From positions 5,983,616 through 6,047,615 of the forward strand of contig CM028333.1 of NCBI GenBank assembly GCA_016647705.1: a stretch of 64,000 bases of DNA. The letters run 5' to 3'. Of this stretch, positions 2,981-41,269 are shown in pieces (position 1 is the stretch's first letter; each line of letters opens with the position of its first letter). The notes beneath the pieces were generated by a model. The model ran no database searches, had not been told where the DNA came from, and saw only the letters and a program-made list of their open reading frames with translations. Made by a program: the position numbers and the translations under genes. This stretch comes from Eucommia ulmoides. Its lineage: Eukaryota > Streptophyta > Magnoliopsida > Garryales > Eucommiaceae.

Positions 2981-3012
<32 letters not shown>

Positions 3013-4231: not shown

Positions 4232-4352
4232 CAAGGTATATAGCTCGTGCAGCCAAGGATGACTTGCCGACTCCCCCCCTCTTACGTCTGCCACAGGGTG
4301 AGATAGTAGTCGTCGGCAAGTTGTCCTTGGCTACATGACTGCCTGGTATTCT
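4232..4352 (+). ncRNA. MIR169: MIR169 precursor hairpin
   Basis: Positions 4250-4270 match the plant miR169 mature sequence from memory (core AGCCAAGGATGACTTGCC). The opposite arm, about 4314-4336, contains GGCAAGTTGTCCTTGGCTAC, whose reverse complement pairs with the mature arm apart from two adjacent mismatches. The loop is about 43 nt and contains a run of C. Pairing continues a few bases past the duplex on both sides (CTCGTG with CATGAC), as expected for a DCL1-processed precursor. miR169 is known to direct cleavage of NF-YA (HAP2) mRNAs and is linked to drought, nitrogen and development. The gene is transcribed toward PNSL2, whose stop codon lies about 300 bp away on the other strand. 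A minus-strand open frame across this hairpin is a shadow. The family call is strong; the family member is not resolved. Confidence 0.9.
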
Positions 4353-4589
4353 CATGATAGATCTCCGATGATCTAGAAGAGTCTCTGACGTCGTGCATGT
4401 GGACGGCTGTAAGTTCTTTCTGAACACACTATTTTTTGTATGCCGGTTTAATATGCTTTTACCATATAATCTTATTCTATAAATCAAAATATATTTTATA
4501 TTTGAGACATTTTTGACCATTGGATGATTGAAAATGTTTCTAACTAGTTGATTTAGATTTTGCTAAGAAACTAGATAACAAAGCACAAA

Positions 4590-4591
<2 letters not shown>

Positions 4592-4623
<32 letters not shown>
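4592..4623. repeat. (TA)n microsatellite
   Basis: About 16 TA units lie just beyond the PNSL2 stop codon, in its probable 3' untranslated or flanking region. Such tracts vary in length between individuals. Confidence 0.9.
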
Positions 4624-4625
<2 letters not shown>

Positions 4626-4649
4626 CATAATGTATGTAGGTATTATGGG

Positions 4650-7600
4650 CTATAGCAATGCGACAAGAGCATCTATTGACTTCAGTGTCTTCTCATAGTA
4701 TAGGTAGGATTCGTACACCCTGGGTGTTCGAACATGAATATCCAGCTGCAATCACAACCAAAATACAGCAGTCATAATCACCATCATCGGTAAACAAAAG
4801 CCTGATATTATGGGTAAAGTAAAACTAAAGTTGCACGGAAAATCACATATGCAATCCAAAAAGAGAAAAAAAGGTGTTTCTAATGATTCATGAAAGGTGC
4901 AAAAACATTATTAAGTGATGCAGAAACTTGGGAAGTTACCTCTATGCAGATCTGAGAAGAATGCAGAGGTAAAGGAAGGGAAGACACTCCCCAAGATACC
5001 ATGGCTGATTGTGGTACTGTTTTTGCTAGTAATATTAATGTTCCAATTGGGGAACCGAGTAGAGGTAAAAAATAATCTCTGCCACTCAAGACCCTAGGGA
5101 TAAGAATGAGTCAGATAGTGTCAAGATGAAAGGAGTTAGAAATCTAGCTGATGAAGAGGAGGAAGTTTTATCGGAGGGCGTGATCTGGGAGGCTAATAAG
5201 AATTCGAATCAAGATTCTGATTCTCAGCAAATTTCGAATCTCAATCTCTCTCCTAGGTGAGTTAGTGAGGAGGTCAATTGTGATGAGGATGAGGATGACT
5301 TTAAGCAGGTTTCCTATAAAAGGAGAAACAAAAAGAAGTTACAATTCCTAATCAGAGGAGTTACAACTAGATCAATGGGATCAACAAGATCGATGGAAAG
5401 AAATTATCACTCCAGTTACATGGACGATTTTTTGTATTGGGATGAGTGATTTTGTTTGATTTGATTTTTCTTTTTTCTTTTTTGCTTTTTGCTATTTCTT
5501 CCTTCTATCAGTATTGGCCTAGTCTCCTGATAGGTTTGTTTGGTTTTTATTTTCTAATAATTTTTTATTTAAAAAAAGAAGAAGTGATGCAGCAACACGT
5601 TATTTCTACTTAGTTGAATCAGATGAATATATCATGCCGAAATTCATTTGTGATTAGGGAAAATTTCATTTTTGGTCCTTAAAAGTATAGTATGGGAGGT
5701 TAAGTGTACCATGAGGGTTTGTCAAATTGCATATTTGATCCCTTAACTTTCACATTTGTTTTAATTCTGTAAAAAGTAAAAACTTTGTTAATAATTTTGG
5801 ACATAAAATGGGTTGTGCTCGGCACGTGGTCTTTTAGCATGTATGTTTTTGTCATTTTGTCACTTCACTAAACGTAAGACTTTTTTTTTTTTCCTAATAA
5901 CGAGTTAAACTTCTCTCTCTTATTCTTTAGATTTGGGAAAAAACGTCTTAGATTTAATATAGTGATGAAATGTCTAAATATTTCCATTAGAAGACCACTT
6001 GCAGCGAACAATCCGTTTTTCATTCAAAATCAAACGTTTTTTATTTTGTGGAATTGGATGACTAAATGTGCAATTTGGTCTCTGACGAGGCCTCTAATTC
6101 GTCCCTTTCTGGAGTGCAGTTAGTCATGTTAGGATGTAAAAGTTTTATCCAAGAGGAGTGTATGGAGGAAGGCTTCCAGTAGTTCTCTAGACAAGTGAGA
6201 AATTCTGGAAGCAAAAGAAGAAGTATATTGGGAACATCTGTCAATCACTTCTTATTCCTATTCTTCCACACTTGCCAGATGGTAGCAATGAAAAAGTAGG
6301 AACTTCAACGGTTGAGATCCTATTGAAATTTGCCTTGATCCTAGAAAATGGCCAACACCCACATTTGCTTTGTGGAATCTCCTTAACACATGACATTCCT
6401 CATTGATAATATGCAAGATTAGTAATAGTAACCATCCTCCTACATCATTCAAGATGTCAAAAACCTTCATATTGTACATCTCCTGAATATTTAGTCCCTA
6501 GAGGATTTTTTACCCTAGTAAGGGATGGTCATGGGCCGGATTTTGATTACGGTATTACACAAAAATGTTAGGCCCTAATCCAACCCGGCCCTATGATCGG
6601 GGCCTAATTTCATACCCAAGCCCAGCCCTACAAAAAAAAATTAAGCCCAGGCTCAGCCCTAGCCCGACCCTATAATTTTTTTTTTAAAATTTAAAAACTA
6701 AATACTAAAATTACAAAATGGCCCCTCAACTCTCTCTCTATGGAGATGAATGAAACTAGAGTTTGCTAAATTATCTAGTTGAAATTGAAAATTACAAAAT
6801 GGTCCCTCAACTCTTTCTTTATGGATATATATATAATTTTTTTTTTTTTTATATTTTAAAAAAGTTTGGGCCGGGTCGGCCCTAAACAAAAATGATCAAG
6901 CTCTAGCCCGGCCTTAAAAATGAATGGCCCTTAGTCTTTAGGCCTTAGTCTGGCCCATGGGCTCAAACACCAAGCCCAAGCCCTAAAAAAATAGGGCCGG
7001 GCTGGGCGGGCCGATCGGGCCCATTTGAGCTATACTTTCTTTAAAGTTCTTATTCGAGGTTATCTAGATATATAGAGAATTTCTGATCTTGGGTTTTCTA
7101 GATTCTTTTTAATTGGGCAAGAATGTTACTTTTCTTCTTAAAAATGTTACGAAATGGTTCCACTTCTTGAGAATATTAGTCAAATTATCTAGTTTTAGAG
7201 TCAGATTAGGATCCCAACAATTTTTCAAAAGATTGTAGAATTTAGGGTGGGTTAGCCTCATAAATTCAAAACGGAAAGGCTTTTTAAGAAACTGAGAATC
7301 ATAATATTTCAAAACATATATGATTAAAGCAGAGTAGTCAGAGTACATATATGGCAGGTTTTCAACCATGGCATTAGGGAAAAAGTGCACCTTCTACTTG
7401 GCTCTGTCAAGTCTTTAATTGATCTTGATCCAATTTTGACAAGTCTGAGACCACGTTATGTGAGGTCCAGTATTGAACAATCCACAATCATTCACATTCT
7501 TACTGAATTTATTGATTCTAAGAAGATTGCGGGAACTGCAAGAGCCCAGTTTCCCACTATGAGTAGTGATCCTGCCGCAAGCCAAGACATGTCGTTATTC

Positions 7601-9391
7601 TGGCAGAAATCCCTAAGCTCTCTCCACAGCTTCTCTTTCTTTCTCGGGTTGGGATTGGCATAAACCGCGGAGAGGACCCAAGTTGTTTTTATTAACCATT
7701 GAGTGGATGACTTGGTTCTTTATGGATATGGCCTAGATCTTAAGTTTTTTTGGAACCCACATAACCCAAATTCCTCTCTCTTCCTTAAGAATTGATGTGT
7801 AAACCCAAATTATTGAAAAAGTTCCCCATGGAATTAAGCTCTACCATTGTTTCCATCAGCACACCAAGTTAGGGCAGTAATTACTAGCCAGATCTCTAAT
7901 TGCATTTTTGAAATTGTCATTACCTGCGCCTCTACAGTTCCAGATCAGAAGCTTTTATCGATCGTCTGCTTGGTAGGGAAGCAGGAGTTTCCATCTCCCG
8001 ACACATTGTTCCCATGCAATTATAAATAGCAATTCAAGAAACAGGGTTGCAGTTTCGCTCCTTTCGATTATCCTTACTGCCAACCGCACTCTTTCTAAAA
8101 TACAAAATATTTCCACACAGTGAATCATCCATTCCTCCTGTTCTGGGAACAGGGAAAAAGGATTCTTTAGGAGGAGGAATCGGATTTGGTCTTCCATACT
8201 TACTCCGATTCCTTCATTTTCTTCTAAGCTGGGTCTTGGTTTCCGGCTGTAGTTCTTACATGACTCGACTCTGATCCGGTTCTGGTCCCGACACCAGAAT
8301 CTTCTCCGGCGTAGGATTCTGGTTTTCTCCAAGGCCTTTGAAAGGGCAAAACTCTGCCCGATCATTTACTCTTGCACATGCATAGCACAGAGCATGTAAG
8401 CTCTCGTATCCTACATTGCAGATTCTTCGTTTATTTCATATTGAGCAATTGGAGGCTTGGTAAGGTCCAGCTCAATGCATATTCTTACAAACTTACCTAT
8501 AATAAGGCCTCATTGTTTCCATCCATCTTATTTAATAGGTATTCCCATTATTTTACCGATGTTGTACAATATGGGTGGTTCGTATTCTTCAAAGACGCTT
8601 ATTTTTTCATTTATCTAGGAAATAATTACCAACAAAGTGTGAACCCAAGATGCGTCAGTTCGGTTGGTAAAGAGAGGGTTCATTTTTTTAGTTTGACTCT
8701 AGTTTGGTTGGCAAAGAGAGGGTTCATTTTTTTAGTTTGACTCTACTGAAGAATACTTTAATAGTTAAATCTTGAATTTATTAAAAAAATACCAGTCCGA
8801 TGTGGATTGGTGCGCTCTTAAAATAATTCAAGGAGATAATTAGTCGAGGTTTAATCTAACAGACACACCTTACTATAAAAATAATAGAAAACTGTGTATA
8901 GATATGGTATATTGGCTTACATCGGTCATGCTATCAACCAAGTCATTGGCCGCTTGTACATAAGCTCCTCGCCGGCTCTCCGGCACCGTCGCCATCGCAT
9001 TCGTCATATCCTGAGACAGATACGCCTGCTTCAGCCGGATGTAGAACAGCACATACCTCCACGACATAGTATCGAGCATCTCCCTAATGCTGTGGAGTCC
9101 TTCCGCCGTCTGCCGAATTCTCGCCGCTGCATCCTCCGGCGAAAGCCCCGGCTCGAAGAACCGTTCCTTGAGAAAGGAGCGCGTGCCCCACTTCTCCGCC
9201 AACGCTAGTGGCGCCGCCCCGAATGCTGCAACTGAACCGGCCAGAAATGTCGCGACGAATTTTCTCTTGGTGGTCGAGTTTTCATCGGCGGAAATTGACG
9301 ACCGTATGGACGGGATAGTCCGGTGCCGGCGACGGTAGAGTGTGGTGAATTGGGCGTGGAATAGAGTAGTGGGGTTAATGAAGGCGCTCAT
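4650..9391 (-). CDS. PNSL2: PNSL2, PsbQ-like lumenal subunit of chloroplast NDH
   Basis: Two exons on the minus strand, 9391-8921 (157 codons) and 4745-4650 (31 codons plus TAG), join in phase 0 to give 188 residues, the usual size for this family. The donor GTAAGC follows MTD and the acceptor TGCAG precedes LDIHVRTP. The N-terminus is a bipartite chloroplast-to-lumen signal: an R/S-rich transit part to about residue 40, then TKRK, a hydrophobic stretch and ALA|E at 63-66, suggesting cleavage after residue 65 (KR in place of a twin arginine). The mature part is a PsbQ-like four-helix protein with EKWGTRSFLKERFF, PGLSPEDAAARI, MSWRYVLFYIRLKQAYLSQD and, in exon 2, RVYESYLYYEKTLKSID. In Arabidopsis the homologue is part of the lumenal subcomplex of the NDH-PSI supercomplex needed for cyclic electron flow. 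The intron is 4175 bp and full of LINE debris. Without exon 2 the first exon reads through into intron and would be misannotated as a 172-residue protein. Confidence 0.93.
4913..5592 (+). mobile_element. 5'-truncated LINE insertion with 11-bp target duplication
   Basis: The direct repeat AAGTGATGCAG (4913-4923 and 5582-5592) brackets an insertion that ends in an A-rich tail (about 5570-5580), the signature of target-primed reverse transcription. The interior reads, with frame breaks, as the acidic C-terminal part of a LINE first ORF: ADEEEEVLSEGVIWEANKNS, then DEDEDDFKQVSYKRRNKKK and TTRSMG, with one internal stop. A T-rich 3' region containing TTGGCCTAGTCTCCTGATAG follows. There is no reverse transcriptase. 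It sits in the PNSL2 intron, antisense to that gene. Confidence 0.7.
5593..6229. other. PNSL2 intron, unclassified repeat-like DNA
   Basis: The stretch beginning AAAATTTCATTTTTGGTCC (about 5658) resembles the ends of common plant DNA transposons, but I could not find a matching second end. A T-run lies at 5881-5892. There is no coding potential. Confidence 0.35.
6230..6500 (-). pseudogene. LINE ORF2 C-terminal remnant
   Basis: Read on the minus strand across one or two frame changes, the sequence gives FFIATIWQVWKNRNK near 6245-6290, which fits the tail of plant L1-type ORF2 proteins (IW..WK.RN). Upstream in the same strand (about 6300-6480) are further ORF2-like but scrambled residues. It is in the same orientation as the endonuclease fragment at 7046-8040 and was probably continuous with it before insertion and deletion. 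The reverse transcriptase domain is missing. Confidence 0.5.
6505..7045. mobile_element. GGGCCGG-rich insertion splitting the LINE
   Basis: This block is dominated by repeated GGCCC/GGGCCGG words (for example about 6532-6680 and 6865-7025) that are unlike the flanking LINE. It starts with AAGGGATGGTCATGGGCCGG and ends with GGGCCGATCGGGCCCATTTG, giving imperfectly inverted ends reminiscent of hAT-type MITEs whose consensus begins with a similar GGGATGG motif. Two near-identical segments (GTCCCTCAACTCT-like, near 6720 and 6800) lie inside. I could not confirm an 8-bp target duplication. Confidence 0.4.
7046..8040 (-). pseudogene. LINE (L1-type) endonuclease-domain relic
   Basis: On the minus strand LLIWNCRGAGNDNFKNAIRD (from about 7955) is the start of an L1-type apurinic endonuclease domain. 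It continues, with stops and frameshifts, through GIWVMW, EKEREAVERA, INKFSKNVNDCGLFN, WSQ and FPNAMVENLPYMYSDYSALI to RFEFMRLTHP and KKWNHFV, then out of frame to a segment like KSNILAQLKRI. The order and spacing match the endonuclease and its C-terminal linker. No intact reading frame and no reverse transcriptase remain. The upstream open frame at 8041-8365 could be part of the same element but shows no recognisable domain. It lies in the sense direction of the PNSL2 intron. Confidence 0.75.
8662..8745. repeat. 42-bp tandem duplication in the PNSL2 intron
   Basis: Two near-identical copies carry GAGAGGGTTCATTTTTTTAG and end TTTGACTCTA(C). The copies differ by one base (GTTGGTAAAG against GTTGGCAAAG), so the duplication is fairly recent. 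It is non-coding. Confidence 0.85.
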
Positions 9392-9525
9392 AGTGTAAAG
9401 AAAACTGAATTTTGGAAATTCAGGGAAACTTGCAGGAAAAAAATGTTATTGATGGATAAAAATCTTGGGCAGGTTTCGTGGCTGACCGATGTGACCGTCA
9501 ATCCAACATGGACCTTCGCTTTTGG

Positions 9526-9639: not shown

Positions 9640-10158
9640 ATTGAAAGTTATTGTACGCTATAAATATTATTATAATTTTTTTATATAAAAAAATTATTGT
9701 TACGATACGATAATTTTAAATTTTTAAAAAAATTACTGTATCACATGGATTGAATGAGCAAAAATTTTAATTTGGTAGACTGTTCACCGATTTTTTTTTA
9801 TATTTAGTGAAAATTATTTGTAGCTTACACCAAATTAGTAAAATTTCTTAAACCAATCAATCATTTTACTTTGATCTCACTTATTAAATTTCATAAAAAA
9901 ATTAATGCTCCAATTAGAGTTACATCGTTGGCCGCTGCTCTATTGCCGTCGTACTCCGATCTCACTTAATAGATTTGGCGTGTTTTTGGTTCAAATTTTC
10001 AACATCATTTTATTCTAATTTTGATACCGACCTAATTAAGCCTTGAAAATTTAGCTATTTGCTATTTAGAGTATCCAATTATTTTAAGGCAATTATTAGA
10101 TATTATTGGTGTTTGTGCAGTTTTAAGAAATAAAATATTTATCTATGTATTTGTTTTT
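9640..10158. other. Intergenic AT-rich DNA
   Basis: No gene or clear repeat end is seen. It separates the PNSL2 promoter from the left boundary proposed for the composite Mutator-like element. Confidence 0.4.
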
Positions 10159-11483
10159 AGGGGCACATACCGGTAGCTCCCATTTTACAATTGTGCATAC
10201 CAATCCAACCTAATGCCTTTTTTTTTGGACTTTTAACACCTTTTGTGCAATTACTGACCGTAATACCCCTGCAACATGCCAAATATGGGATGTTTTATGA
10301 CCCATGTTTGTGGTGCATTTAAAAGCCCACACACAGCTATCCCGCAAAAAATGGGGCATATTGCTTGGCCATCTTCGGAACAAAAACCTGGATGTACTCT
10401 GCTTTTATGATGTCGAAAAATGAAAATTTTTGCATCATATTAATCATAAAAAATCATCTTTCTATAGATATGCTATTAATGTTTTTTGGCCGAAGAAATT
10501 GTTTTCATGTGGGTGTTACATTCCACACTCAAAGGTGTGTTGAATGTAACATCAACGGCCGTATGTTCGGGAGTCCGTGTTGTCATACGTTCGCGAATCA
10601 CCTGATCGTTGCCCATGTGCCGCCTCAATCAAATCACCCGTACTCCATGCGACGTGTATGTGACCATTTTTGGTAGTGGCGCGGTTTTCATTTGGAGCCT
10701 TTTCGTGTTCCATTCTCATCCAAAAACCCTAGAATCACACTCTCTTTCCATATCTTCTCCACGATTTCATCATTTGACTACCCTAAAAACTCCGTCGTCC
10801 CAAAAAAATAGTGACTACTCGATGAAAGATGCAGACCATGAACCCTAATACTGCTGCTACCTCAGTGAACCTCACAGAATCAGGTAAGTTTTCTCATTTG
10901 TGGAATGTTTACTTCGTGATTGGCTCTGTGCACAATGAAGCACTATTTTCTGCGTCTTTCTGTTTGTTTGATACTAAGAGACTTGGCATGCATGAAGTGT
11001 AACGCACCGAAACTTTAAAAAAAATGACCTGTGTACAATATTGTTTGCTCTGTTTCTTTATGTTTACCTGTTTTTAGTCCCGTTCTGTTTTTGTGCTTTG
11101 ATTGTGCTTCCTGTCGTTGTAAATGCATGTGTTTCTGTTTTGGGTTTTTTTGTTATTTACGCATTCTATCACTTGTGTTTGATGATTTTATGTGTATTAT
11201 TTTATGTTTACAACATTGTTGCGCTCTGTTTTGTTGTGGCTGCATGTTTATGGGCCCGTTTTGTTTTTTGTGCTATGGTTGTGCTTCGAATCCTTGTAAA
11301 TGCATCTATTTTCTGTGTATTATTTATGTTTAAACTTTTAATCGCTTGTGTTCTGGTATGTTCTGTGTATTATTTCTATTTATATCAGTTGCGCTATGTT
11401 TCCCTATGCTTAAAAGGGGTTTTAATCCTTATGTTTCTTGTATGTCATCTGACCATAATGTTAAACAAAAATGCATATGTGTG

Positions 11484-11706
11484 TTGAATGTAATACTGTC
11501 ATTATGTTGAATGTAACATTGTGTTGAATGTAACACTGTCAGTAAATTGAATGTGACATTGTGTTGAATGTAACACTATCATCCAACCATAATGTTAAAC
11601 AAATTGCAAACATATGTTGAATGTAACATTGTCGTTATGTTTGAATGTAACATTGGTGTTATATTGTTGAATGTAACACTGTCATTGTGTTGAATGTAAC
11701 ATTGTT
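11484..11706 (+). repeat. TGTTGAATGTAACA motif array 1
   Basis: About nine copies of GTTGAATGTAACA(T/C)T, all in the plus orientation, are spaced 18-50 bp apart in intron 1 of the protease gene. Linkers repeat TTGTGTTG and CTGTCAT. Two more copies, in opposite orientations, lie at 10518 and 10541, before the gene starts. Confidence 0.9.
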
Positions 11707-12610
11707 GTTATTTTTTTGATTCCAAAAAGAATAGATCCATGTTTTAATTTAGAAGTATGTTCAAGTCATGTTGAGTGCAAACACTGTCTTGATCTTAATT
11801 TGTGTTTTAAGATGAAACAGTTTTCATCGAATACACACAACCCGCTGCGCCGACCAATGTCTCTGACATTTCCACTGTGCCATCATGCAGTTCCTTTGAC
11901 ACAGAAGCACCCGTTTCATCACCGTCTAGACCTGCGGATTCGCTCACATTGGATAACCCGAGAGCTAAATACAGGGAAAATCTATCACAGTTTTGCTCTC
12001 TTGTTTCCATTGTTTGCCTCCGCGATTCACATACTGAACTACTTAGACGGACACTATTTTGGAACACAATGTCAGCGCTCTTCCCTGGTTGCTCGGCGAA
12101 TCTGGCTTTTAACAAAATAGATAGCTTGTGCGCGAACATCATAATTACATACCAACCGCATCGTAAAGCCTTCAAAATCGGGCTCAAATTAGTGTTGCTC
12201 ATGCCCGATGACGTCCAACTGATATTTGGCTTTACATCTGGTAACAAACCAATACCAGGACGGTATGCCAAGAAGGCTGAATGCTCATTTATCCGTCGTT
12301 GGTATTTGAAGACTAACCGATTGAGTGTCATTCAGATCAAGAACATGCTGATAGGGATTGTGGATAGTGATGCTGAGGATGATGTTGAGGATGTTGTGTG
12401 ATTACTCTGTCTGCATCTTATTGCAACATGTTTTTTTGCAAACAAGGGGTAATCGTGTAGTCTTTCTGATATAAAACTCGTTGAGGATTTGAATGCGCTT
12501 TCATCCTATAATTGGGCTGAGTGCGTGCACTCAAACTTAATGTCTTCGATAGAGGATGGGTACCAGACGTCGTCGTCGGTCATTGGTTGTGTTATCGCAC
12601 TACAGGTTAT

Positions 12611-12611
<1 letters not shown>

Positions 12612-12657
<46 letters not shown>
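12612..12657. repeat. Poly-T tract of 46 bp
   Basis: An uninterrupted T run lies in intron 3 of the protease gene, directly after the donor site. It could be the remnant tail of a retrocopy on the minus strand, but no body is visible. Its length is liable to sequencing error. Confidence 0.85.
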
Positions 12658-12661
<4 letters not shown>

Positions 12662-12904
12662 ATCTAACTTATTAAAAACTGTCAATTTTTGTTGTTGTCC
12701 CTTGTTTTGTTTCTTAAAATCAGTTTTGGCTGTGCGATCACACTAACATTATTCGTGTTGTTCCCGAGCGCGAGACATTTATACCACGATGGGGAAAGTG
12801 GAATATGATTGAATTGATGACTGTTGCATCTGGACTGCGATTGTGTGACCTTGGTGAAAACTAGGTATGTTGTGCGACCTTGGTGAAAAACGATACATTT
12901 CGTT

Positions 12905-15900
12905 GTTGAAATGTAACATGAATATGTCTTTTGGATGTTACCTTCAACATTCCATATGCTCCCAATGTGATGTCTGTGTACAACCCACTGTTTTGACTGT
13001 TCGTGATGAATGTAACATGGCTCTGTCCCTGAGTGTTACATTCAACATTAATGTTACATTCAAACATTCAAAAAGAGTGGACTGTACACATGTACATACA
13101 ACACACGGGGTGCCTGTGCATGTTGAAAGTAACATGGATCTGTCCCTGGATGTTCCATTCAATATTATTGTATGAGTTTTTGTAAGACCCAGATTTTAGC
13201 ACATACGTCATTCTAGTTGCATTTTAGAGTAATTGGAAAATACGGGGTAAAATTTTGCTAATTCATATCCAAATTAAAAGTTTATGGGTCAAATTATAAA
13301 TTTAAAAACATTTATTCTAGACTTGGGATGCAAATTGTCAATTAAAATTTAAAATTTAAAATGTTAGGGGTGAAATTACAATTTAAGAAAATCCAAAAAG
13401 GTTGAATTGGACTAAAATAAGGATTTAAAGAAATTAGGGGCGGGGGAAAGAGTAATTAAAATAAAAGTTTATCATATATATATATATATCATATATATGC
13501 ACATGTGGGTGTGTGACAAGAGACCGCCGACGACAGAGAGGAGAGAAAGTGGGAGGCGACGTAGCAAGCTAGGATGAATTGAAACCACTTGAATCATGCA
13601 TATAAAAGGGATCCATGCAAGATTTTCATAATCCAAAATCCCAGAGAAGAAGAAATCATTTAGAATTCTAGAGAGAGAGAGGGGATCGGAGGGAGGTCGC
13701 CGGAGCTGTTCATGATCGTCGACGATGGTGGGTTCTTCGGCGTGAGTATGGGTGTTGGTCATTGATCATCCAGCGATCGTGGATTGGTTGTGTCGTCACC
13801 GTTTTGCTCGACGGTGTGGGGGTGTTGGCCGTCGTTGGTAAGTGTGTGTGTATGTGTTTGTGATTTTTGCGTCAGACAGTGTGTGTGCGTGTGTGCGAGA
13901 TCATGTGTGTGTGTGTATTCAGACGAATGCTTGTGTGTGGCATTATGTATGTGGGTTTTGTGTGTTCATTCGCGTGGGTGTGATCAGTCGCGGATCGTTC
14001 GGCGTGCATGTGGGTGGGTGATTGTCGTTGGTGGTCCGGAGGTGCGCGTGAGCATTTGGTAGTTGTGTGCATGTGAGTTGTTATCAATTTCATGTGTGCA
14101 TGTGTAATCGTCATGTGTGTGTGATTGTCATAGGGGGTGTGGGAATGGCCGGAGCTGGCAAGAGAGAGAGAGAGATGGGCTATCTGAATGCAAACAGGGA
14201 GCAGGACGAAGAAGACGACCCTCGCCAGGCGATGAGGCGTTCGCCTCGGCGATGGAGGGTCAGTGCGCCAAAACAGAGTGAAAAAAGGAAAGTTTGCCGA
14301 GGCGGTGGAGGGTTAGTAAGCAAATTAAAGAAAGAAAGAGCGTGTCGCCGCGGGGGTAAGCCAGAATCAGAAAAACAGTGAAACTTCAACCATTTGAAAA
14401 AAGATAAAATTTCGACCGATTTTAATTTTGTTAAATTTAACTATTGACATCAAAATTTCGTAACCGGGATAATAAATCTCGTGACCATTCATATTTATAA
14501 ATTGTGTATAGTAATTTTTAAAGGACCAAAAAAATTAACCAAATAATAATTTTTCATAATAAAATGTGGAGAATGGGAAATTGGTGAAATATAGGGCCTG
14601 CAATGCATGATTAGGTTATGTTGAATAAAATATTAATTTAGGCCCTATCACTATTAGGTTCGCAGGCACCGGCATACCAATAGAGTGTGGTTAGTAGTAA
14701 TTTTGCGGAGCGGATATCGAGGTAAGCGTACTGTCTTCTACGTAAATTACAAATTGTATTTTCGTATATATTATGGAAAATGTGTTTATTTAAAAATTGG
14801 ACGAATTTACAACTTATATGGATCAAGCGGTTTTAGGTGTTTGTGGAAAAATGATTTGTGGATTACGTTGGTTTTAAAAGGGTGAAAAATGATTTGTTGA
14901 ATCTAGTTGGTTTCTAAAAGGGTGAAAAATGATTGTGGACCGAGCCGTTTGTTTTTTAGGTGGAAATTGGTGTTTGGTCCGATTATGCCATAGTATTTCT
15001 TCCCATAAGGGATGTGAATTTTCTTCCCGTAAGGGATGTGGATATTTTTCCCGTAAGGGTTGTGGATTGACCCGTTAGGAAGTGCAAACCCTGTGGGTGG
15101 TATGGTACCGTTGCAACTCTCGATCGTAAGGTTAAAACGATCCTATGACTAGTCGGAGGGTGGTGTGGTGTTTTGTCGTGTACGGTGAACCAGTTGGATA
15201 AATTTATATATATTACTTTATACTGGATTGGTGTATCTATTAGTTTAGTTGCTTTACACTATTTGGTTAGATATAGTATTCTGGTGGATTTTCACTACTT
15301 GGTTGGAATGTTATAAATCTATGGGTTTATTTCTGTGGTGACAGGAAAACGGAGTTTTTCAGGTGGTATATGATTTTTGTATTATTATTTGAAATGTGGT
15401 ATTTAAATTATTATTATACTTGATCCATATACAAAAAAAAAATGTTTTTTATTATAAAGACAGTACACCGATAAAATTTTTAGTTTCAGGTACAGCGGCT
15501 AGGAATCGGTTCCCTACTGGCACTAGATAGAGTCCTGCTGTAGCGTTGTTTTGGAAGTAGGCTGTCTGAGGCGAACTCGTGGGAGGTTCAGCATTATTAT
15601 TATTTCGTTGTACTATTTTTGTTGTATATATATTTAGGGATGGATGTGTCCCAGTCTGAGAGGATATATATGGTTGTGTGCCTGTATATGTATATATATG
15701 TCGTGGGTTCTAGTTGGTTGGTTGTTCAAGGGAGGTCATGTCGACGTCACGCCGGCCCAGGGGTGATGGGTGTCCGGGGTGGGGTGTGACAGTTTTTGTG
15801 CATACCCCATGATTTGACTGTCTTTTGGATGTTACATTCAACATTCCTTGTGTTCCCAATGTGATGTCTATATACAACCTGCTGTTTTGACTGTTCGTAA

Positions 15901-16165
15901 TGAATGTAACATGGCTCTGTCACTGAGTGTTACATTCAACATTCATGTTGCATTCAACATTCAAAGAGGAGTGAATTGTACACATGTACATACAGACACG
16001 GTTTGACTGCGCATGTTGAATGTAACATGGATCTGTCCTTGTATGTTCCATTCAACATTATGTGTGTGAGTTTTTGTGCATACCCCATGATTTGACTGTG
16101 TGTATTGAAAACCAGGTATGTTGTGCGTGATTCTAATACATTTCGTTGTGTGTTGAATGTAATGG
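12905..16165. repeat. TGTTGAATGTAACA array 2, with a duplicated 300-bp unit, split by a solo LTR
   Basis: Before the LTR (12905-13180) and after it (15797-16165) lie two copies of one unit of about 300 bp. Shared order: GGATGTTAC.TTCAACATTCC, CAATGTGATGTCT, ACTGTTTTGACTGTTCGT, GAATGTAACATGGCTCTGTC, TGTTACATTCAACATT, TACACATGTACATAC, AACATGGATCTGTCC. The second copy also contains GAAAACCAGGTATGTTGTGCG (about 16107), a duplicate of the exon 4/intron 4 border, so the duplication included a splice donor. Motif copies occur in both orientations, giving paired inverted sites. Confidence 0.85.
13181..15791 (+). mobile_element. Solo LTR, Ty3 Tekay-like, with target duplication GTTTT
   Basis: The element begins TGTAAGACCC, ends GGGGTGTGACA and is flanked on both sides by GTTTT (13176-13180 and 15792-15796), a perfect 5-bp target duplication. 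No internal coding region is present, so this is a solo LTR of 2611 bp left by recombination between two LTRs. The end TGTCGACGTCACGC.GGCC and the middle ATGGTA(C)GGTACCGTTG and GACTAG(T/C)C segments match the LTR at 38725-41265, so the two are one family. It contains GT-rich microsatellite (13840-14110) and GGCGATG/GGCGGTGG words at about 14220-14312. Open frames inside it are spurious. Confidence 0.88.
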
Positions 16166-17339
16166 CCACGCTGTTTTATTGATTAATGTCATATTTTCAG
16201 GTCAACGAAGGTCAGCTAGTTGAGACACTAGCTGAAATACAAGTCGGTGTCATGTTGCCAGTGCATGGTGATACTACGGAGTCCGGTACCAAAACAAAGG
16301 GCAAGGGAAAAGTCACCTCGTCAAGCGAATTTCCATCTTTTGACTTGTGTATATCACAAACGTTTAACGAGGAGGTTGCTGACTTTTGTGGCGGTTCACA
16401 GAACTTAACTGAGCTCGTTGATTGAAATCGCCAACTGACGTCTAAGGTAGATGCGTTGAGGGAGTCTTGAAGATGTCTAAGATTAAGGAAGGCAGCAAGG
16501 ATTGAAAAGCTAAGAGCAACGGTACGAGAGTTGAAGGAGAAAATACAACAATTGCACGGAAGCCTCATCGAGTCAGAGGTGCATGTGATTACACAGAATG
16601 AACGCCATGAATCTGAAAAGAAGATTATTGAAGAAGAATTGGTTGAGGTTATTGTTCATTCTGTAACCCAATTAGTCGAGTAGAAGCGAAAACATGAAGA
16701 GAACATTGTTGGTGTGTCCGAATTCTATCAAATGGAACCGGGGATATGAATCGTGTTATTGGCCAGCAGGCTGCAGAGATTGTACGTTAGGATAATCCAG
16801 TGACAGTCCACCCCCCGCGACGTGGTGCGCGAACGAGGAATCGACCACCAAAGCCCACTTCGCTCGCTAAAAATGTGAAGAAATGTGTGAGGACGCGGAG
16901 GACTGGAGATGACTCTGTCCATGAGTGCACTGTACCTGTTAGAAAACAGCGCCGATTGAAGCAAAAAAATAATAATCTTGTCAGAGATATGGTTGTTTAC
17001 ACAGGTGAGCCTTTCGTATCTGGTGCAGTTGCTGTTGAACCTCGTGTGTTACCTCCCCAAGATGGGCCTGTTGCTCGTCTATTGGTCCCAGCTGATTGGG
17101 AAAAGCTTGAGTTGATTATACGCACTGAAGGATCGTCGTAAGTATTTTATTTGTATTTGTATTCTTATTTGTACTTATACTGACATTATATATACCTCAA
17201 TCTGCAAACTTTGAAAATCCTGTAGTACGTACGTATGGGGCGATGAGTGGCCGGATGCTCAATTATCAATGCGTGACATTCTTAGGCTGTTATGGGAACA
17301 CCAGTTGACGAATTTTGTAAGTACACTTTTGTTCATCAT

Positions 17340-17595
17340 AAAAACATATTGTGTGTTACATTCCACATCTGTTGAATGTAACATAATATATTTTGTTGAA
17401 TGTAACATGCTCTTGTGTTTTGAAACTGTAGCATACACCTGTAAAATTGAATGTACCATTGTTTTTCATTCCACACCTGTTGAATGTAACATGCTCGTGT
17501 GTTTTGAAATTTAATAGAGCATGCACAATACATGTTACGTTCCACACGTGTTGAATGTAACATGTTATGAGATGTTGTTGATTGTAACATGCTGC
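17340..17595. repeat. TGTTGAATGTAACA motif array 3
   Basis: Intron 6 of the protease gene carries repeated pairs of GTGTTACATTCCACA and TGTTGAATGTAACAT facing each other, with a TGCTC(T/G)TGTGTTTTGAAA linker. The paired sites would form short hairpins. Confidence 0.88.
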
Positions 17596-18668
17596 TGTGT
17601 CCTGAGAATATGGCATGCACCTGTAGAATTGGATGTAACGTCTGTGTTAAGAACCCTCACAAATCCACTCATTCATTGTTGCGTCTTTGTTTGTTTTGTT
17701 TCGTGTAGGTTATCAATGCATATATGGAAATTATGTGGACCGAGCAGTGTAAGGTTGTCACTCGAGCAGTGTAAGGTTGTCACTTATCTGCCTGATCTAT
17801 CTAATTCCTCATTTTTTATAAACAGTGCATGTTGGGTGAGTGTCAGGGGACCTATACAATTTTTGTTAATGTGTTTTTACTCACTAATTTGTAACGCCAT
17901 GCTTACCTGCTGTTGTTTATGTTTTGTACCTTTTTTGTTCCATGCACTTACCAGACTTGGATCCGTCAAAATGTTTTTGATTGCCTTAACGATATTCTGG
18001 ATCCAAGTATAATACAAGCGTTTTCATCTAACGTCCGGTATATGCATTTTCCTCTACATAGTGAGGGGTTGGGCCCTGAATCAGGACACTGTACGCTTCT
18101 TGTATGTGATAAACAAAAATCAACTTGGAATCATTATAATTCTATTGACCTGCAGCAGCTAGGATCAATTGACGTTTATTACGAGAATGCCAAAAAAGTT
18201 GTAAGTTTTGTTTCAATTTTTTTTTTGAGCGAAAAAATGCGAAAAAATATTCTTACCTTTGGTTTTAATTCTGACAGATTTTATACATCAACCTTTCAAA
18301 AAAAGCTAACCAACATAGGCTGAAGCGTGTGAAAATTTCCAATGTTGCTAAAGTACCTAATCAGGGGATGTCAATGTAAGTGCACCCCCTTTCCCTTCAA
18401 TCAATTGCGCTACCATGTCGTTTATTTATGTAATCGTATTATTGACTGTTGTTTCGAATTGTACGTATGCAGTGTTGACTGCGAGGTATGTGTGGTTTAC
18501 GTGATGAAGCAGCTATACAATGCACAACCGATCAATGTCGATTTGGGTCCTGAAGATTTTTGAATGGAGCGATCTGCACTTGTGCATACATTCCTTAATG
18601 ATCCACCCCGTTCTTGGACTCTCGACACAACTTTAGCGAGGGAACTTAATGAAAAAATATCGCAGTGA

Positions 18669-19939
18669 AAATACATGGTATCTTATTAACCCCCTGGCCT
18701 ACATTGATCCCCACTAAGAAAACTGTGTATAAGTGACAGTGTTTTATGCTTTTTTTTTTTTTGGTTTTCCTTATATGAAACAATTTAGCCTATTGTTTTT
18801 TGACATGTTTTTACGTACTGGTTTTGATCTTAAATTAACTAATGCATAAAGTCATGTAAAAGAAAACCCCGTTGTTGATATGATTGTCTGTTGTTTTTTG
18901 ACATGTTTTTACGTACTGGTTTTGACCTTCAATTAACTAATGCATAAAGTCATGTAAAAGAAAACCCCGTTGTTGATATGATTGTCTTGTCACCAAAGCA
19001 ATCTTGGAAACGTACTTTAGAAATGCACTTACGGTTAAAGGTATGTTGTGGTGTTTAACATACCAAGTGCTTACATTACTGGATGTGCCCACCAGCCATG
19101 TTGAATGTAACATGACCGTGTCTTTGGATGTTACATTCAATATTCCTTGCGTGCTTCCAATTTAATGTCTGTATACAACCCACTGTTTTTGGCTGTGTTC
19201 GTGTTGAATGTAACATGGCTCTGTGCCTGAATGTTACATTCAACATTCATGTGTGACGTACCCTCCCCATGATTTTTCGTGGGACTGTAATATGGACCTT
19301 GCTGTGCATGTTGAATGTAACATGACTTTTGTCCCTGGATGTTACATTCAACATTTTGTGTGTATGCGTTTTTGTGCATACCCCATGTTTTGACTATGTG
19401 TGTTGGATGTAATATGGCTTGCCAATATTACGTTCAACTTTCCTTTTGTGTGTGTAATGTCCACATGTACATAAAACTCTGTTTTTGCTATACGTGTTGA
19501 ACGTAGCATTGCTTTGTCCTTGGATGTTACATTTAATATTCCTTTCTGCGTGCGTGTTGTGCATGTATATGTAACCATTACAAACGGTGTGTTTAGCATA
19601 AACACAACTTTGCTGTTTTTGCACTCAACCTTTATTTTTGAGTGTTGGATGTAACATGAACATAAAAACATGGTTTGCTTTTGTGTGTTGAATGTAACAT
19701 TGCTTTGCCAAAAATGTTCCATGCAAAATCATTATTTATGATGTTAAAAAAAGATCTAACATGCACATAATAAACGGTTTACACACTTGCACTTTTTTTT
19801 CCTGACCGTGATATGAATAAATATTCCAATATAAACCTGTTGTATATAGCAAGGAAAAAAATGTAACTATGGAAAGGAAAAAAAATGTATTATCCATAAA
19901 AATGAAGACCCTATATGTTTTATCTTTGTTAATGGGAAT
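18669..19939. repeat. Spacer between the MULE genes, with motif array 4
   Basis: Two tandem copies of a roughly 120-bp segment (about 18782-18990, sharing TTTTTTGACATGTTTTTACG and AAGTCATGTAAAAGAAAACC) are followed at 19100-19720 by about a dozen motif copies in both orientations and a third copy of the 300-bp unit (19110-19390: CTTTGGATGTTACATTCAA, TGTATACAACCCACTG, AACATGGCTCTGTGCCTG). No gene is present. Confidence 0.8.
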
Positions 19940-22249
19940 CTACAAGAAGTAGATTTTATTTTGGTACGAATGAACAAAAAAATCAAAGTCTCTATCTTCC
20001 CCCCTTTCGGGCGGTACTTTGCATGATTTCCTATTGTGTCTCCCCATTTGACCACATCGACCACATAGCCTTTATTTTACCTCTCCACGGGATGCAATCC
20101 GAACTTTCCTTGGACGTCCCGGTTGTTTTCTTGATAAAGGGGGTAAGATAATTGCTTCACTCTTGACCGATATTGGTTGTTCCATCGTTGGTATTGCATA
20201 TATGCCTCTTGAATACGTGTCCCAATAAAACCAACTCCGAAAATAGTCCTCTATGTATCTGAATGTTGGCAGTCCACACTTGTTTATAGCAGCGAATGCA
20301 TGTGCGCATGGAAAACCTTTTATCTGCCACTATTGACATGAGTATGATCGTCTCTCGGTATCAACTAAGACAGAATGGGCTGAATGAACCTCAAACACTC
20401 TATTACCTGATGAACTAATGTTCCACGTTCGTCATTCGTTCAACAATTCACACATCTTATTCTCCCAATATGGCGTTATCTCACCTTGTAGCTTGTTTGC
20501 TTCGTCCCTCATCTCTTTCATTAAGTCCATCCACTTTATCCTTATCTTGTTAATCAGTAAAATTTTCAGGAGGTGGCGAAATTCACTTATCCAAGAATTA
20601 AAACACTCTGCCAGATTGGAAATCATTTTATCGTATCGTTTTCCTCAAAAAAACGCGTTACTGTATTTCATGGCTGACAATTCATGGATGAATCTCTGCA
20701 CTTTTATGCCCCCATCGTGCATTAGTTGATCGTATAGCAGTTTGCATTTTCGACGTGTGTGCGTATGCTAATCCGTTCAATTTTTGGATCATCGTTTCCT
20801 TGAATGTCGTACTTGTGTCGGTCATTGCAGCCATCAAATTCATTTTCAGATGATGCAAACAGTATCCATGATGGCAACGTGGGAACACGTTCTGTATCCC
20901 TTGCAAAATCCAATTGTGCCGGTCGAAAATGAATGTTATCACCATATCCGGCTCGACGATCTTCTTGATTTCTGATAAAATCCAATACAAATTATCATCG
21001 TTTTCTGCACCAACAATGGAGAACGTGACTAGGAACATCCCTGCATAAAACGATGTCCAGTGAAATAAATCCATGTTGAATGTCACAAACAAAATGTTGA
21101 ATGTAACATTGTTACATGTACAAAAAAGTTGAATGTAAAAATATTGTTATGTTTGAAAAAACATAGTTTATATACATACCTTGGTTCCTTTCCTTTGCTG
21201 CTAGTAAATTCCCTCTATACCTACCAGTCAAGAATGTGCTGTCGAGAAACAACATGGGACGACAAAAACGAAAACCACGTATGTACGCTTGGAACGCAAT
21301 GAATATTCTTTTGAAACGCTTTGTGTCCTCGTTATATTCTAGCGTGACATGACTACCATCTTAATTGATCGTATGACGACGAGTAGTCACCAAATACACT
21401 ATTCCTTGTTTTCTCTACCCCCATCCATGCATTCCGATACGATATATCTAGTCCATATTGTTTCCTAAAACTCTCAACGACATCTATTGGGCGAGTTTTT
21501 GGATTTGCACGCACCTCGTCAGCCAAACATGACGATATAATGTCTGAACTCAATCGTTTGCTCTTATTTGTCCGGAATGCAGCACCGCATGTGTGTTCCT
21601 TTACTAGACTGCGTATGTAGAATACGCCATTTTCTCTCCTCACGCGTCCATGGATAAACCACGGGTAATTTCTTTCCTCTCGCAATGCGCATGCAACCGT
21701 TACCCATATCTTGTCGTTTCTAAGGTACTGAAAATTAAACATCACTTCTACCACATATTTCTGCAATGCCATGCGAAAGTCACTTGTCCCCTCCCAGAAT
21801 TTTTGCCCTTACTTTTGTATGCCATCAACCCATTTTGCGGATAACAACGTTTTGTTGCTAGAAATTTGTAACATACCACCGTAACTGCCTATATAGTCCA
21901 TTTCAGCTTTGCTGTTGCCGCTGCTGCGATTGGTGACAGGAACTATCGCACATGATGATGCGCCTGTAGACCCACTTGAATCACTAGCTCGCCTTTCGAC
22001 ACACACTTCAATCAACTTGATCTTCATAATCCCCGCTAGGAAAAACATTTCCTCGTAATCGTTTTGGTCGTCTAGCATGCATTTTGGATGCCCCGGGAGT
22101 GAATATGAGAACTCAAACTTTCCGTTGCGTAATTCTTATCATTTGTCTTTAATTTTTTGACGCAACTCACCGATTTCACAATCATTCCCCATCCTCAACA
22201 CTATTGTCACATTCTTGTACTTGCACAGTAATGAGATTGATAACGTCAT
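19940..22249 (-). pseudogene. mudrA: MuDR-type MULE transposase, decayed
   Basis: Reading starts at ATG 22249 and stops at TAG 19942-19940. Parts in order: an N-terminal region with EIGELRQKIKDK and EMDYIGSYGGMLQISS; the zinc-binding/MuDR segment (EGTSDFRMALQKYVVEVMF, NDKIWVTVACALREERNYPW, KEHTC); ANPKTRPIDVVESFRKQYGL; LFLDSTFLTGRYRGNLLAA with the first catalytic Asp; after an intron (about 21181-21045), GMFLVTFSIVGAENDDNLYW, then ITFIFDRHNWILQGIQNVFP with the second Asp and HHGYCLHHLKMNL; NLAECFNSWI; a SWIM finger (SCQWQIKGFPCAHAFAA); and a CCHC knuckle (CGRCGQMGRHNRKSC). Breaks include two stops near 22148, TAA at about 21809, a frame change near 21355, another near 20740, a stop near 20655 and stops at about 20425 and 20070. 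The protein would bind the terminal repeats and cut the element out; this copy is inactive. Confidence 0.85.
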
Positions 22250-22730
22250 CTTGTTCAATAAAAAATATAATCCCTATCAGTACAAAATGCTTATGCAGCG
22301 ACACACACTGATTCTTTTAAAAAAAAATGTCAGTAGTAACGTCAAAATCTGAACGTGCTGTGTGCATGTGGAATGTAACACCCATGTGTTGTGTATTTAA
22401 AACGACACACATGATCATGGATGTTGAGATATACAAATCCATGATTGGGTGTCGTGTATGTGGAATGTAACACTCACTGATTCTTTCCAAAAAAAAATGT
22501 CGGTAGTAACGTCAAGGCTGATCATGTTGTGTACATATGGAATGTAACACTCATGTGCTGTGTGTGTAAAACCACATGCCTGAAAGTGGATGTTGAATGT
22601 AACATCCATGCATTGTGTCGTGTGTGTGGAATGTAACATTCATTGTTGCTTCAAAGAATGTGCCACCAAAAGCGTAAAACTAATTTGTTGTTGTGTGTGC
22701 ATGTGGAATGTAACCCCCACCATGTTCGCC
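21060..22730. repeat. TGTTGAATGTAACA motif copies around the transposase gene
   Basis: Three copies lie in the transposase intron (21073-21140). Six to eight more at 22370-22720, upstream of its start, take the form GTGGAATGTAACA(C/T) with CATGT linkers and are again tandem-like, spaced about 60-90 bp apart. The positions upstream of the start codon would place them in the transposase promoter. Confidence 0.82.
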
Positions 22731-23475
22731 CGACATCTTATTCAAAAAAAAATGACAGTAATAACGTCAATGGATTGTGTCGTTTGCATGTGGAATATGA
22801 CATCCTCTGTTATATATGGTCGCCGACAAATGTGTTGTGTGCACACACGTATATTTGTGTGCGTCAAACAAAATGATTTTTACGTACTCGTTTCGATCTG
22901 TAGCTCTGAATCTATGAAATGGTGACTGATTGATTCTTCGACTTCTGCTTTCTCAATAGATTCTGAAATTCGTAGAGCTCCACCTGTTCTTCTCCGAATA
23001 AACCATATATCGAAGTGTGTTTCGGAAAGGCTCGACCTGTTCTTCTTCGATCTTTCTTCTCTACATTGATTTTCAAATTTAAAAAACCCTAAATATGGGA
23101 AGGTCTTATAGTCCCAACTGACTGTGCCGTTTCATATGGTAAAATGGATCTATATTTGTTAAAATCTATTGCGAAAATGAAGGGAGGGTATATTGGTAAT
23201 CCATTACCGGCGATTCTCGGGGAACGGGATTACCTTCTTCAATTACTCTTACCAATGGGAGTTATCGGTCTACTGTTGAGTTCTTGGGCTTGATCGGTAA
23301 CAGAGAAACAAAAACAGTAGTTATTGGTAATTTTCTCTTGTTTTTATTGTATGTTGGTATTTAATTTATTTTATACCATATATCAAGATTTTTTAATTGG
23401 GTTGTTTAATTCTGGGAGTGATAGGATTGATTCTTTAAATCTTAAGTTGCATTACTAGAAATGAAAAATCGCTAA

Positions 23476-24439: not shown

Positions 24440-25610
24440 CGGCATGTTTGGTTGGACGGAATGGAATGAAGGTGGAATGAAATGGAAGAAGTAATGGAAT
24501 GAGAGAAGGAATGGAATGGAATTGTGAATGAAATCACTATTCCATTCTCTTGTTTGGTTGCTATGAAATGAAAGAAAGAATGAAATAGCGAAATATAGTA
24601 AAATTTCTATTTTGCCCTTATAAAATTATTATTCTATTTTTTTCTTGGTTGGTTATAATAAAATTTTATTATATTTCACTATTCTATTTCTTTCCTCATT
24701 TTATTATATTTCACTATTCAACTCAATTTTAAATTTTCGTTCTCTAATTTCTATTTTTGTTCTCAATTTTCAGTTTCTATTCTTTAATTTCTGTTTTTGT
24801 TCTCAATTTTTAGTTTCCTTTTTCAATTTTTCGTTCTCTAATTTTTTATTTTTTGTTCTCAATTTTCAGTTTATGTTTTCAATTTTTTGTTTTTGTTCTC
24901 AATTTTCTGTTTTTATTCTCAATTTTCGGTTTCCGTTCTCAGTTTTCTATTATCTAATTTTATGTTTTTGTTCTCAATTTTCTGTTTCTATTCTCTAATT
25001 TTATGTTTTTGTTCTCAATTTTCAGTTTTTGTTCTCAATTTTTCGTTCTCTAATTTTATATTTTTGTTCTTAATTTTCAATTTATATTCTCAATTTTTAG
25101 TTTATGTTCTCAATTTCATGTTCTCTAATTTTATATTTTTGTTCTCAATTTTTAATTTATGTTCTCAATTTCCTGTTCTCTAATTTTCTGTTTTTGTTCT
25201 CAATTTTCGGTTTATATTCTCAATTTTCTGTTTCTATTCTCAATTTTCAATTTCTGTTCTCAATTTTCTAGTTCTGTTCTCAATTTTTTGTTCTCAATTT
25301 TCTATTTCTATTCCCAACTTTCTGTTCTTTAATTTCAATTTATATTCTCTAATTTCTGTTTTTGTTCTCAGTTTTTAAAGGCTTAATTACAAGGACTATC
25401 ATGTAATTTAAGATGTTGATTCTATTGGGTTGGAATTCCATTCCACCCCATCTTAAATGGAATCTCATTCCATCCAATTTTATTCCAATGAAATCACAAA
25501 AGTGATTCCATTGGAGAACCAAACAACGGAATAGGAATCGAGAGAGGAATGGAATCGAGGGTGGAATGCGATTCCATCCCGCCCTTGATTCCATCCAACC
25601 AAACATGCCG
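24440..25610. mobile_element. PIF/Harbinger-like MITE with TTA target duplication
   Basis: Terminal inverted repeats begin CGGCATGTTTGGTTGGA on both sides and continue imperfectly with GGAAT-rich sequence for about 60 bp. TTA occurs directly outside each end (24437-24439 and 25611-25613), the 3-bp duplication typical of PIF/Harbinger. No transposase is encoded, so it is non-autonomous. At 1171 bp it is long for a MITE because of the internal minisatellite. Confidence 0.85.
24745..25380. repeat. T-rich minisatellite inside the MITE
   Basis: About 25 degenerate copies of a 20-25 bp unit, consensus near TTTTTGTTCTCAATTTTCNG, are arranged head to tail. Phe/Leu/Ser-rich open frames across it are artefacts of the repeat. 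Confidence 0.85.
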
Positions 25611-38510: not shown

Positions 38511-38724
38511 CATGTTTGATATAAAAATAAGCACTTAAAAATGAACTAAATCAACCACCCGATTATTTTAGATCAAACAACCCAAATATTTTATATCAAC
38601 CCGTCCAAGTAATTTAGACCCACTAGTCCCACATCTCAACACATGATAAAATATCACACTAGTCAACCAAAATAATATATATTTATACGCCAATCATTTT
38701 AAAGTAATACGTATCCGAACTAAA
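38511..38724. other. Unclassified AT-rich segment
   Basis: It starts like a small DNA element (ACATGTTTGATATAAAAATA, about 38511) and ends where LTR homology begins. It replaces the first 27 bp of the adjoining LTR. GAACTAAATCAA occurs near both ends (38542 and 38717). Confidence 0.35.
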
Positions 38725-38995: not shown

Positions 38996-39030
<35 letters not shown>

Positions 39031-41265: not shown

Positions 41266-41269
41266 ATTT

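Follow-up and report, generated by a model that had tools for sequence, protein, structure and literature searches.

VANC proteins of the Arabidopsis VANDAL transposons contain the domain DUF1985, bind short words in non-coding tandem repeats of the family that encodes them and remove methylation, with VANC21 and VANC6 recognising different words, as described in the passages of Hosaka et al. 2017 cited here (PMC5735166). RNA-directed DNA methylation targets the same regions as VANC, according to the relevant part of a 2023 paper (PMC10398659). Some VANDALs are described in a 2026 review as having a Ulp1-containing VANC gene (KIU), which recognises group-specific motifs, and the same review gives Ulp1 as conserved in eudicots (PMC13317346); for Mutator-like elements (MULEs), an account of the Arabidopsis KI-MULEs places Ulp1 opposite to the transposase, and that of grapevine MULEs includes both orientations (PMC2528002). 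In this study, we have analysed a stretch of 64 kb of the Eucommia ulmoides genome (the window; contig CM028333.1, positions 5,983,616 to 6,047,615), in which an earlier note had pointed to a recurrent word throughout a MULE. This word, TGTTGAATGTAACA (motif A), is dense in the non-coding DNA of the element and of its relatives, and we propose, with a probability of roughly 0.6, that its 16-bp form RTGTTGAATGTAACAY is the target of the element's own DUF1985-type protein, in a VANC-like system of sequence-specific anti-silencing.

Comparison with VANDAL21/VANC21 and VANDAL6/VANC6, as they are presented in the cited parts of PMC5735166, shows four shared traits: a MULE with a transposase and a DUF1985 gene, a short word that is rare elsewhere and dense in non-coding DNA (introns, intergenic and terminal parts), arrays built as tandem repeats, and related families with different words. 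VANC also has DUF287, where the gene described here has a weak Ulp1 match; and binding and demethylation have been demonstrated for VANC, whereas the present system is known from sequence alone (PMC5735166). The KIU-carrying VANDALs and the KAONASHI (KI) MULEs, as characterised in PMC13317346 and PMC2528002, resemble the window element in being MULEs without terminal inverted repeats (non-TIR), with a second gene opposite to the transposase; this gene bears Ulp1 in those elements, and the Ulp1 match here stays below the Pfam cut-off. En/Spm TnpA and MuDR MURA are presented in the cited part of PMC10398659 as transposon proteins that lower methylation of element DNA, the effect proposed here; there, the effect of MURA is placed in the terminal inverted repeats, whereas the present sites stay clear of the ends and occupy introns and spacers. 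The arrangement is thus familiar from Arabidopsis transposons, and the word here differs, being long and near-palindromic.

Motif A in the window and in the genome

With up to three mismatches allowed on either strand, the window contains 72 matches to TGTTGAATGTAACA, where dinucleotide shuffles give 16.3 on average (standard deviation 3.7; largest count in 100 shuffles, 26), and 62 of the 72 matches fall within 10514-22802. A limit of two mismatches leaves 50 sites, including 23 exact ones, with 35 on the + strand and 15 on the - strand; all lie within 10514-22715 and none elsewhere in the 64 kb, outside the element at 10160-23337. One hundred permuted versions of the word, counted at up to two mismatches in the same element, gave a mean of 0.17 and a maximum of 2. 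Set against the exon model, the 50 sites form eight clusters (Table 1); none overlaps a modelled exon, and none lies inside a nested long terminal repeat (LTR), for which bounds of 13178-15789 were used in this count, against 13181-15791 as read. The observation made in the earlier note is therefore confirmed: dozens of motifs in both orientations are present throughout the MULE, in introns, spacers and upstream regions and, at up to two mismatches, nowhere else in the window. The span that it gave, 10518..22720, holds as the extent of the motifs and falls short of the element itself.

Exact copies in the 947-Mb assembly were counted on both strands, with the reversed word as control. For TGTTGAATGTAACA there are 8,425 + 8,487 = 16,912 copies against 7 + 8 = 15, far above the background given by the control, and for RTGTTGAATGTAACAY there are 7,634 + 7,732 = 15,366 against 2 + 0. 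The two flanking positions are R and Y in 15,366 of the 16,912 copies, and the word is therefore an imperfect palindrome in which the arms RTGTT/AACAY flank GAATGT. Joined at 15 kb, the first 100 places listed for TGTTGAATGTAACA, all on C1, form 25 clusters. A text search of the literature for the motif letters returned no match.

Related elements, short copies and conservation of the sites

Six related elements carry motif A, which is thus present in relatives of the window copy. We refer to the window element as E1, to the related elements as E2, E3 and E4, and to L020 and L012 as E5 and E6; the last two, with 26 and 17 sites, entered the set through the motif and align to the window genes, and the end search found no ends for them. 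Relatives of the transposase picked by similarity (150 scored of 2,034 candidates) have 23 (in the L029 stretch alone), 35 and 37 sites, and a further stretch, L037, has 42. When 8-mers are counted de novo, fragments of the motif rank highest in each of E1-E4. Shuffles, reversed-word counts, permutations and these 8-mer counts rule out chance or base composition as the origin of the motif excess.

The numbers of sites in E1, E2, E3 and E4 are 50, 44, 50 and 51, with no exon overlap in any of the four (the exons of the relatives being projected by BLASTN), and their coding fractions are 0.446, 0.453, 0.408 and 0.396; as the sites cluster, a probability computed for independent sites would overstate this avoidance of exons. 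The flanks of the four elements (1.3, 4.7, 4.2 and 3.9 kb) contain no motif sites. E2 is 87-91% identical to the window element in the main blocks. E3 (11.2 kb) and E4 (11.5 kb) share about 90% identity, and in aligning blocks they are 67-78% identical to the window element. Between the non-coding parts of E1 and those of E3/E4, BLASTN matches of 120 bp or more are limited to block edges, to introns that the blocks enclose and to about 0.5 kb where the + gene starts; the non-coding parts of E3/E4 are nevertheless dense in motif A. The site maps differ between related copies.

Divergence within the sites was measured in pairwise alignments, taking as cores the sites with at most one mismatch and drawing 300 placebo sets per comparison. 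Cores of E1/E2 are 0.960 and 0.966 identical, against 0.926 and 0.933 for the flanks (Fisher p 0.014 and 0.015), and those of E3/E4 0.950 and 0.953, against 0.852 and 0.867 (Fisher p 1.5e-9 and 1e-7); placebo windows attained the core identity in 0, 6, 0 and 0 of the 300 draws. Six, one, four and five sites were dropped for falling in indels. Tandem-repeat growth of arrays has likewise been described for VANC targets; here, the arrays contain tandem repeats with periods of 40, 49 and 169, and a 176-bp unit is duplicated at 88% identity (12925-13100 and 15819-15994).

The motif is also retained in short elements. On C1, 19 stretches taken around motif places (L009-L027) have between 2 and 28 sites apiece, against none at up to two mismatches in a stretch at an arbitrary place (L028). 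Joined at 2.5 kb, the sites in L009-L027 make 23 clusters, of which eight have a convincing pair of ends, defined by a 9-bp duplication with at most one mismatch (L009, L010, the second cluster of L013, L018, L021, L022, L026 and L027, with L022 and L027 the weaker ones). Among them are elements of about 1.0-1.7 kb with window-like ends and 9-bp duplications, such as those in L009 (1,297 bp, AAAAAATAA) and L021 (1,115 bp, TTAATCTTA); copies of this size are too short for both genes and retain dense motif arrays. At the L021 locus (C1:15134000-15143900), a 5.4-kb stretch at 1391-6760 with matching ends GGACAAATTACAATTTT and a 9-bp duplication TAAAAATTA encloses the L021 element, and two exact AGTAGATATC words are present.

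A set of loci not chosen by the motif is given by the transposase relatives. The variant TGTGGAATGTAACA (TGTGG), common upstream of the window transposase, has 961 copies against 19 for its control and, because the copies are few, its list covers all of C1 and C2. It is found within 10 kb of 12 of the 17 transposase relatives listed on C1 and C2, and in ten of these 12 a copy lies 1.2-3.9 kb upstream of the matched domain; by chance, about 1.2-1.3% of the C1/C2 sequence is this close to TGTGGAATGTAACA (with the extent of C2 assumed). None of the 15 other MULE-domain matches listed on C1 and C2 (150 scored of 2,936 candidates) has TGTGGAATGTAACA within 10 kb. L032 and L033, two MULEs from other lineages, have neither a motif A site nor an over-represented word of comparable strength. 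Both results rule out that the motif is a general feature of MULEs.

The second gene and a second word

The gene on the + strand is of the DUF1985 type because the homologous stretch of a relative matches this domain. This relative, L037 on C10, aligns to the window exon by exon, with 90% identity in exon 2, and an open piece of it matches DUF1985 with E 6.2e-7. In a profile scan of the whole genome with DUF1985 (PF09331), in which 150 of 580 candidates were scored, at least 105 matched with E <= 0.001. Three of the listed matches, on C10, C16 and C9, lie 5-7.5 kb from a transposase relative and convergent with it, as in the window, and a fourth, on C5, lies 3.4 kb from one on the same strand; comparison by eye of the listed DUF1985 and transposase matches gave no pairs beyond these four, and many of the other matches are of the L038 type described below. 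The + gene probably also has a diverged Ulp1 end. By sequence, DUF1985 has no convincing match among solved structures, the best being histone H3 with E 0.54.

L038 (C8:53217400-53223400), the single locus of its type that was read, is known by its DUF1985 open reading frames (ORFs) and its word. Two DUF1985 ORFs stand in tandem about 5 kb apart, with scores of 6.6e-9 (over the cut-off) and 6e-8 (below it). No copy of motif A at up to two mismatches is present; over-represented words show instead a strong excess of GATATCTA and AGTAGATA, which combine into the perfect palindrome AGTAGATATCTACT (motif B). At up to three mismatches L038 has 26 sites of AGTAGATATCTACT, against a mean of 0.7 and a maximum of 8 for permuted palindromes, and none lies in the three L038 ORFs tested (two DUF1985, one coiled-coil-like). 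Genome-wide, AGTAGATATCTACT has 4,120 sites against 6 for the control.

The separation of the two words was measured in the listed portion of C1, which ends at 12.31 Mb; the 13 motif A clusters there start at least 67 kb from any motif B site, and motif B forms ten clusters. All four L038-type DUF1985 matches listed in this part (150 scored of 2,518 candidates) have AGTAGATATCTACT at a distance of 0.2-1.2 kb, whereas motif A is over 257 kb away from them. A tandem spacing of about 5 kb, as in L038, recurs at many places among the listed DUF1985 matches.

The element and its surroundings

The ends of the element were read from the sequence and then recovered as the same pair by a script. Homology to E2, searched with a query that included flanks, starts at 10161 and stops at 23339, two bases into the target-site duplication. 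This duplication is a perfect 9 bp in E1 (TTGTTTTTA), perfect in E4 and has one mismatch in E3, while in E2 it was seen by eye and needs a one-base shift of the left end; the range given for MULEs in the cited part of PMC6446971 is 8-11 bp. We classify the element as a non-TIR MULE because its ends are poor inverted repeats: in an ungapped comparison, the left end agrees with the reversed right end at 26 of 50 positions, including seven of the first 12.

The transposase has Pfam matches above cut-off to MULE (PF10551, 1.4e-9) and DBD_Tnp_Mut (PF03108, 3.8e-8), and a SWIM domain match below it (0.0043); the + gene and the transposase gene are convergent. The insertion nested in the + gene looks like a solo LTR, and pieces related to it are also found in L026, L011 and L027.

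Table 1. Positions of the element, its genes and its motif clusters in the window
Feature	Position	Strand	Remarks
Left copy of 9-bp target-site duplication TTGTTTTTA	10151-10159		Sequence reading and script
Whole MULE	10160-23337		13,178 bp including nested LTR; short degenerate ends GGGGCACATACC / GGTAATTTTCTC
Inverted motif pair upstream of + gene	10514-10551		
DUF1985-type / Ulp1-like gene	10829-18563	+	About nine approximate exons; stops and frameshifts in window copy
Approximate exons of + gene	10829-10884, 11812-12608, 12724-12863, 16203-17141, 17225-17318, 17709-17838, 17953-18201, 18277-18377, 18472-18563	+	
Motif array, intron 1 of + gene	11482-11701	+	One orientation; tandem repeats, periods 40 and 49
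Motif cluster, intron 3 of + gene, ahead of nested LTR	12936-13164		
Nested insertion with solo-LTR look	13181-15791		Ends TGTAAGACC...GTGTGACA (TG...CA); 5-bp duplication GTTTT; in intron 3 of + gene
Motif cluster, intron 3 of + gene, past nested LTR	15830-16164		Partly an 88% copy of the preceding cluster
Motif cluster, intron 5 of + gene	17354-17589		
Motif cluster in spacer between convergent 3' ends of the two genes	19099-19699		
Transposase gene (MURA-type)	20020-22265	-	Two exons, approximately 21183-22265 and 20020-21052; reading frame broken by stops
Motif cluster, transposase intron	21074-21140	+	
Motif array upstream of transposase gene	22367-22715	+	Mostly TGTGGAATGTAACA variant; 169-bp tandem repeat
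Right copy of 9-bp target-site duplication TTGTTTTTA	23338-23346		Sequence reading and script

To the left of the element, 8873-9445 on the - strand holds a 190-aa ORF that looks like a chloroplast protein and may resemble PsbQ-type proteins. To the right, 24722-25375 is a pyrimidine-rich minisatellite of about 650 bp with periods of 20, 34, 55 and 75, and a strong positive GC skew of 0.20-0.44 extends across 8 kb at 38001-46000.

Discussion

Taken as an analogy, a VANDAL-like reading of the motif arrays is well supported, because the motifs are confined to non-coding DNA, are tandemly amplified and are less diverged than their flanks, and because the family's second gene is of the DUF1985 type. 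The element probably belongs to the DUF1985 anti-silencing kind, by which we mean a kind and not the VANDAL clade as defined by transposase phylogeny. In the mechanism that we propose, the DUF1985-type protein encoded by the + gene would recognise RTGTTGAATGTAACAY, whose near-palindromic 16-bp shape suggests dimer binding. With its sites in introns, spacer and upstream regions, the protein would cover non-coding DNA throughout its family and hold off or strip silencing marks, as VANC does for VANDAL, and the short non-autonomous copies, which retain the arrays, would share the benefit. The arrays themselves would expand by local tandem duplication.

A number of points weigh against this proposal. 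Binding, dimerisation and the counteracting of silencing are all deduced from the sequence. Searched with Pfam, the ORFs that the + gene has in the window itself gave neither DUF1985 nor Ulp1; the DUF1985 match comes from the homologous stretch of L037 and stays below the Pfam cut-off (29.9 bits against 35.1), and on hand-joined exons Ulp1 (C48, PF02902) is weak (14.5 bits where the cut-off is 20.7; E 0.031). The window copy is broken, with stops and frameshifts in both genes, and stops are present inside many of the 150 listed transposase matches. Fifteen of the 23 clusters on C1 are without convincing ends, owing to decay, to the 9.9-kb limit of the stretches or to another nature of the loci, and five of the 17 transposase relatives listed on C1 and C2 have no TGTGGAATGTAACA within 10 kb, when this TGTGG variant alone is scored. 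The transposase and the DUF1985 gene travel together, and association alone is therefore silent on which of the two proteins binds; the second word somewhat favours DUF1985 as the binder. With regard to conservation, one of the four comparisons was matched by 6 of 300 placebo sets, the p values of E1/E2 are only 0.014-0.015, of the aligned sites, 10 of 32, 3 of 29, 11 of 33 and 8 of 32 fit the consensus less well in the relative, and alignment anchoring or repeat homogenisation may be partly behind the lower divergence of the cores. Finally, the words of VANC are 8-9 bp long (YAGTATTAY; AGTTGTCC/AGTTGTAC) and the targets of VANC21 have one orientation in the cited description, whereas the word here is 14-16 bp, near-palindromic and present in both (PMC5735166).

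Among the other explanations, the one that deserves most attention, although we consider it unlikely, is that motif A is a binding site of the transposase (MURA), serving end recognition or acting as a transposition enhancer in the manner of subterminal repeats; the sites of TnpA are subterminal. The motif is common to autonomous-type and short copies with the same ends and 9-bp duplications, the transposase has a DBD_Tnp_Mut domain, and the association of TGTGGAATGTAACA was measured with the transposase lineage and so does not by itself favour DUF1985. However, in all four of E1-E4 the first site lies 355-1240 bp from the left end and the last 610-673 bp from the right end, with introns and spacer filled in between, and a different word occupies the same kind of place in a different family, known by its DUF1985 ORFs. 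The earlier note had offered transposase binding and VANDAL-like silencing or anti-silencing side by side; the likeness to VANDAL has held, and transposase binding has come out as the weaker part, with sites in introns and spacer, away from the ends. Somewhat less probable still is a host transcription factor that would use motif A as promoter or enhancer of the element genes. Clusters upstream of both genes and in introns are in keeping with such a role, and a near-palindrome fits many dimeric factors, but at up to two mismatches there are no sites in the rest of the window, L028, L032 or L033, and therefore no sign of use by host genes there; moreover, copies of 1.0-1.7 kb that cannot hold both genes are still densely arrayed, and in the listed part of C1 the two DUF1985 families hold separate words.

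Neutral minisatellite growth, in which slippage and transposition would have spread the word in the absence of any binding protein, seems improbable to us. It would account for the arrays that are tandem repeats and for duplicated units such as 12925-13100 and 15819-15994, but hardly for a word of 14-16 bp that is kept while most non-coding DNA of E1 has no BLASTN match of 120 bp or more in E3/E4, for cores less diverged than flanks, for exons avoided in four elements out of four, or for pairs at several unrelated spacings. Least probable of all, and in our view very much so, is that inverted copies act as hairpins, either in RNA or in DNA when single-stranded, and might for instance give rise to small RNAs. 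The earlier note had described the motifs as often paired in inverted copies able to form hairpins, and to this extent it was right: 12 of the 28 neighbouring pairs at 60 bp or less in the window are inverted, eight of them convergent at 30-31 bp, several inverted pairs fold stably with RNA parameters, and the overlapping 21-bp palindrome TGTTGAATGTAACATTCAACA has 886 copies in the genome against 0. Nevertheless, seven of the eight convergent pairs are one duplicated unit (family D3), the arrays at 11482-11701 and 22367-22715 have a single orientation, and none of 12 deviations in the eight pairs is shared by the partner arm; we rejected a hairpin function on this lack of compensation between arms.

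The preferred reading, recognition of RTGTTGAATGTAACAY by the family's own DUF1985-type protein, can be extended to the second family, tentatively and at somewhat less than even odds. In this extension, RTGTTGAATGTAACAY and AGTAGATATCTACT, with thousands of copies in non-overlapping sets, would be two self-recognition codes, and each DUF1985 protein, probably as a dimer, would un-silence its own family and the short copies of it, and not the other.

Sequence-specific anti-silencing was worked out in Arabidopsis, and a matching signature can be read from the present genome, with 16,912 exact sites of motif A and 4,120 sites of motif B. Each word is found beside DUF1985-type genes at the loci read, so that two related proteins and two well separated words are present in one genome. 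If the proposal is true, dense orthogonal words beside DUF1985 genes would allow such systems to be found from sequence alone, and would offer a route to study the joint change of a DNA-binding specificity and thousands of its sites. The presence of the word in short non-autonomous copies raises, in turn, the question of how these copies load on the anti-silencing protein.

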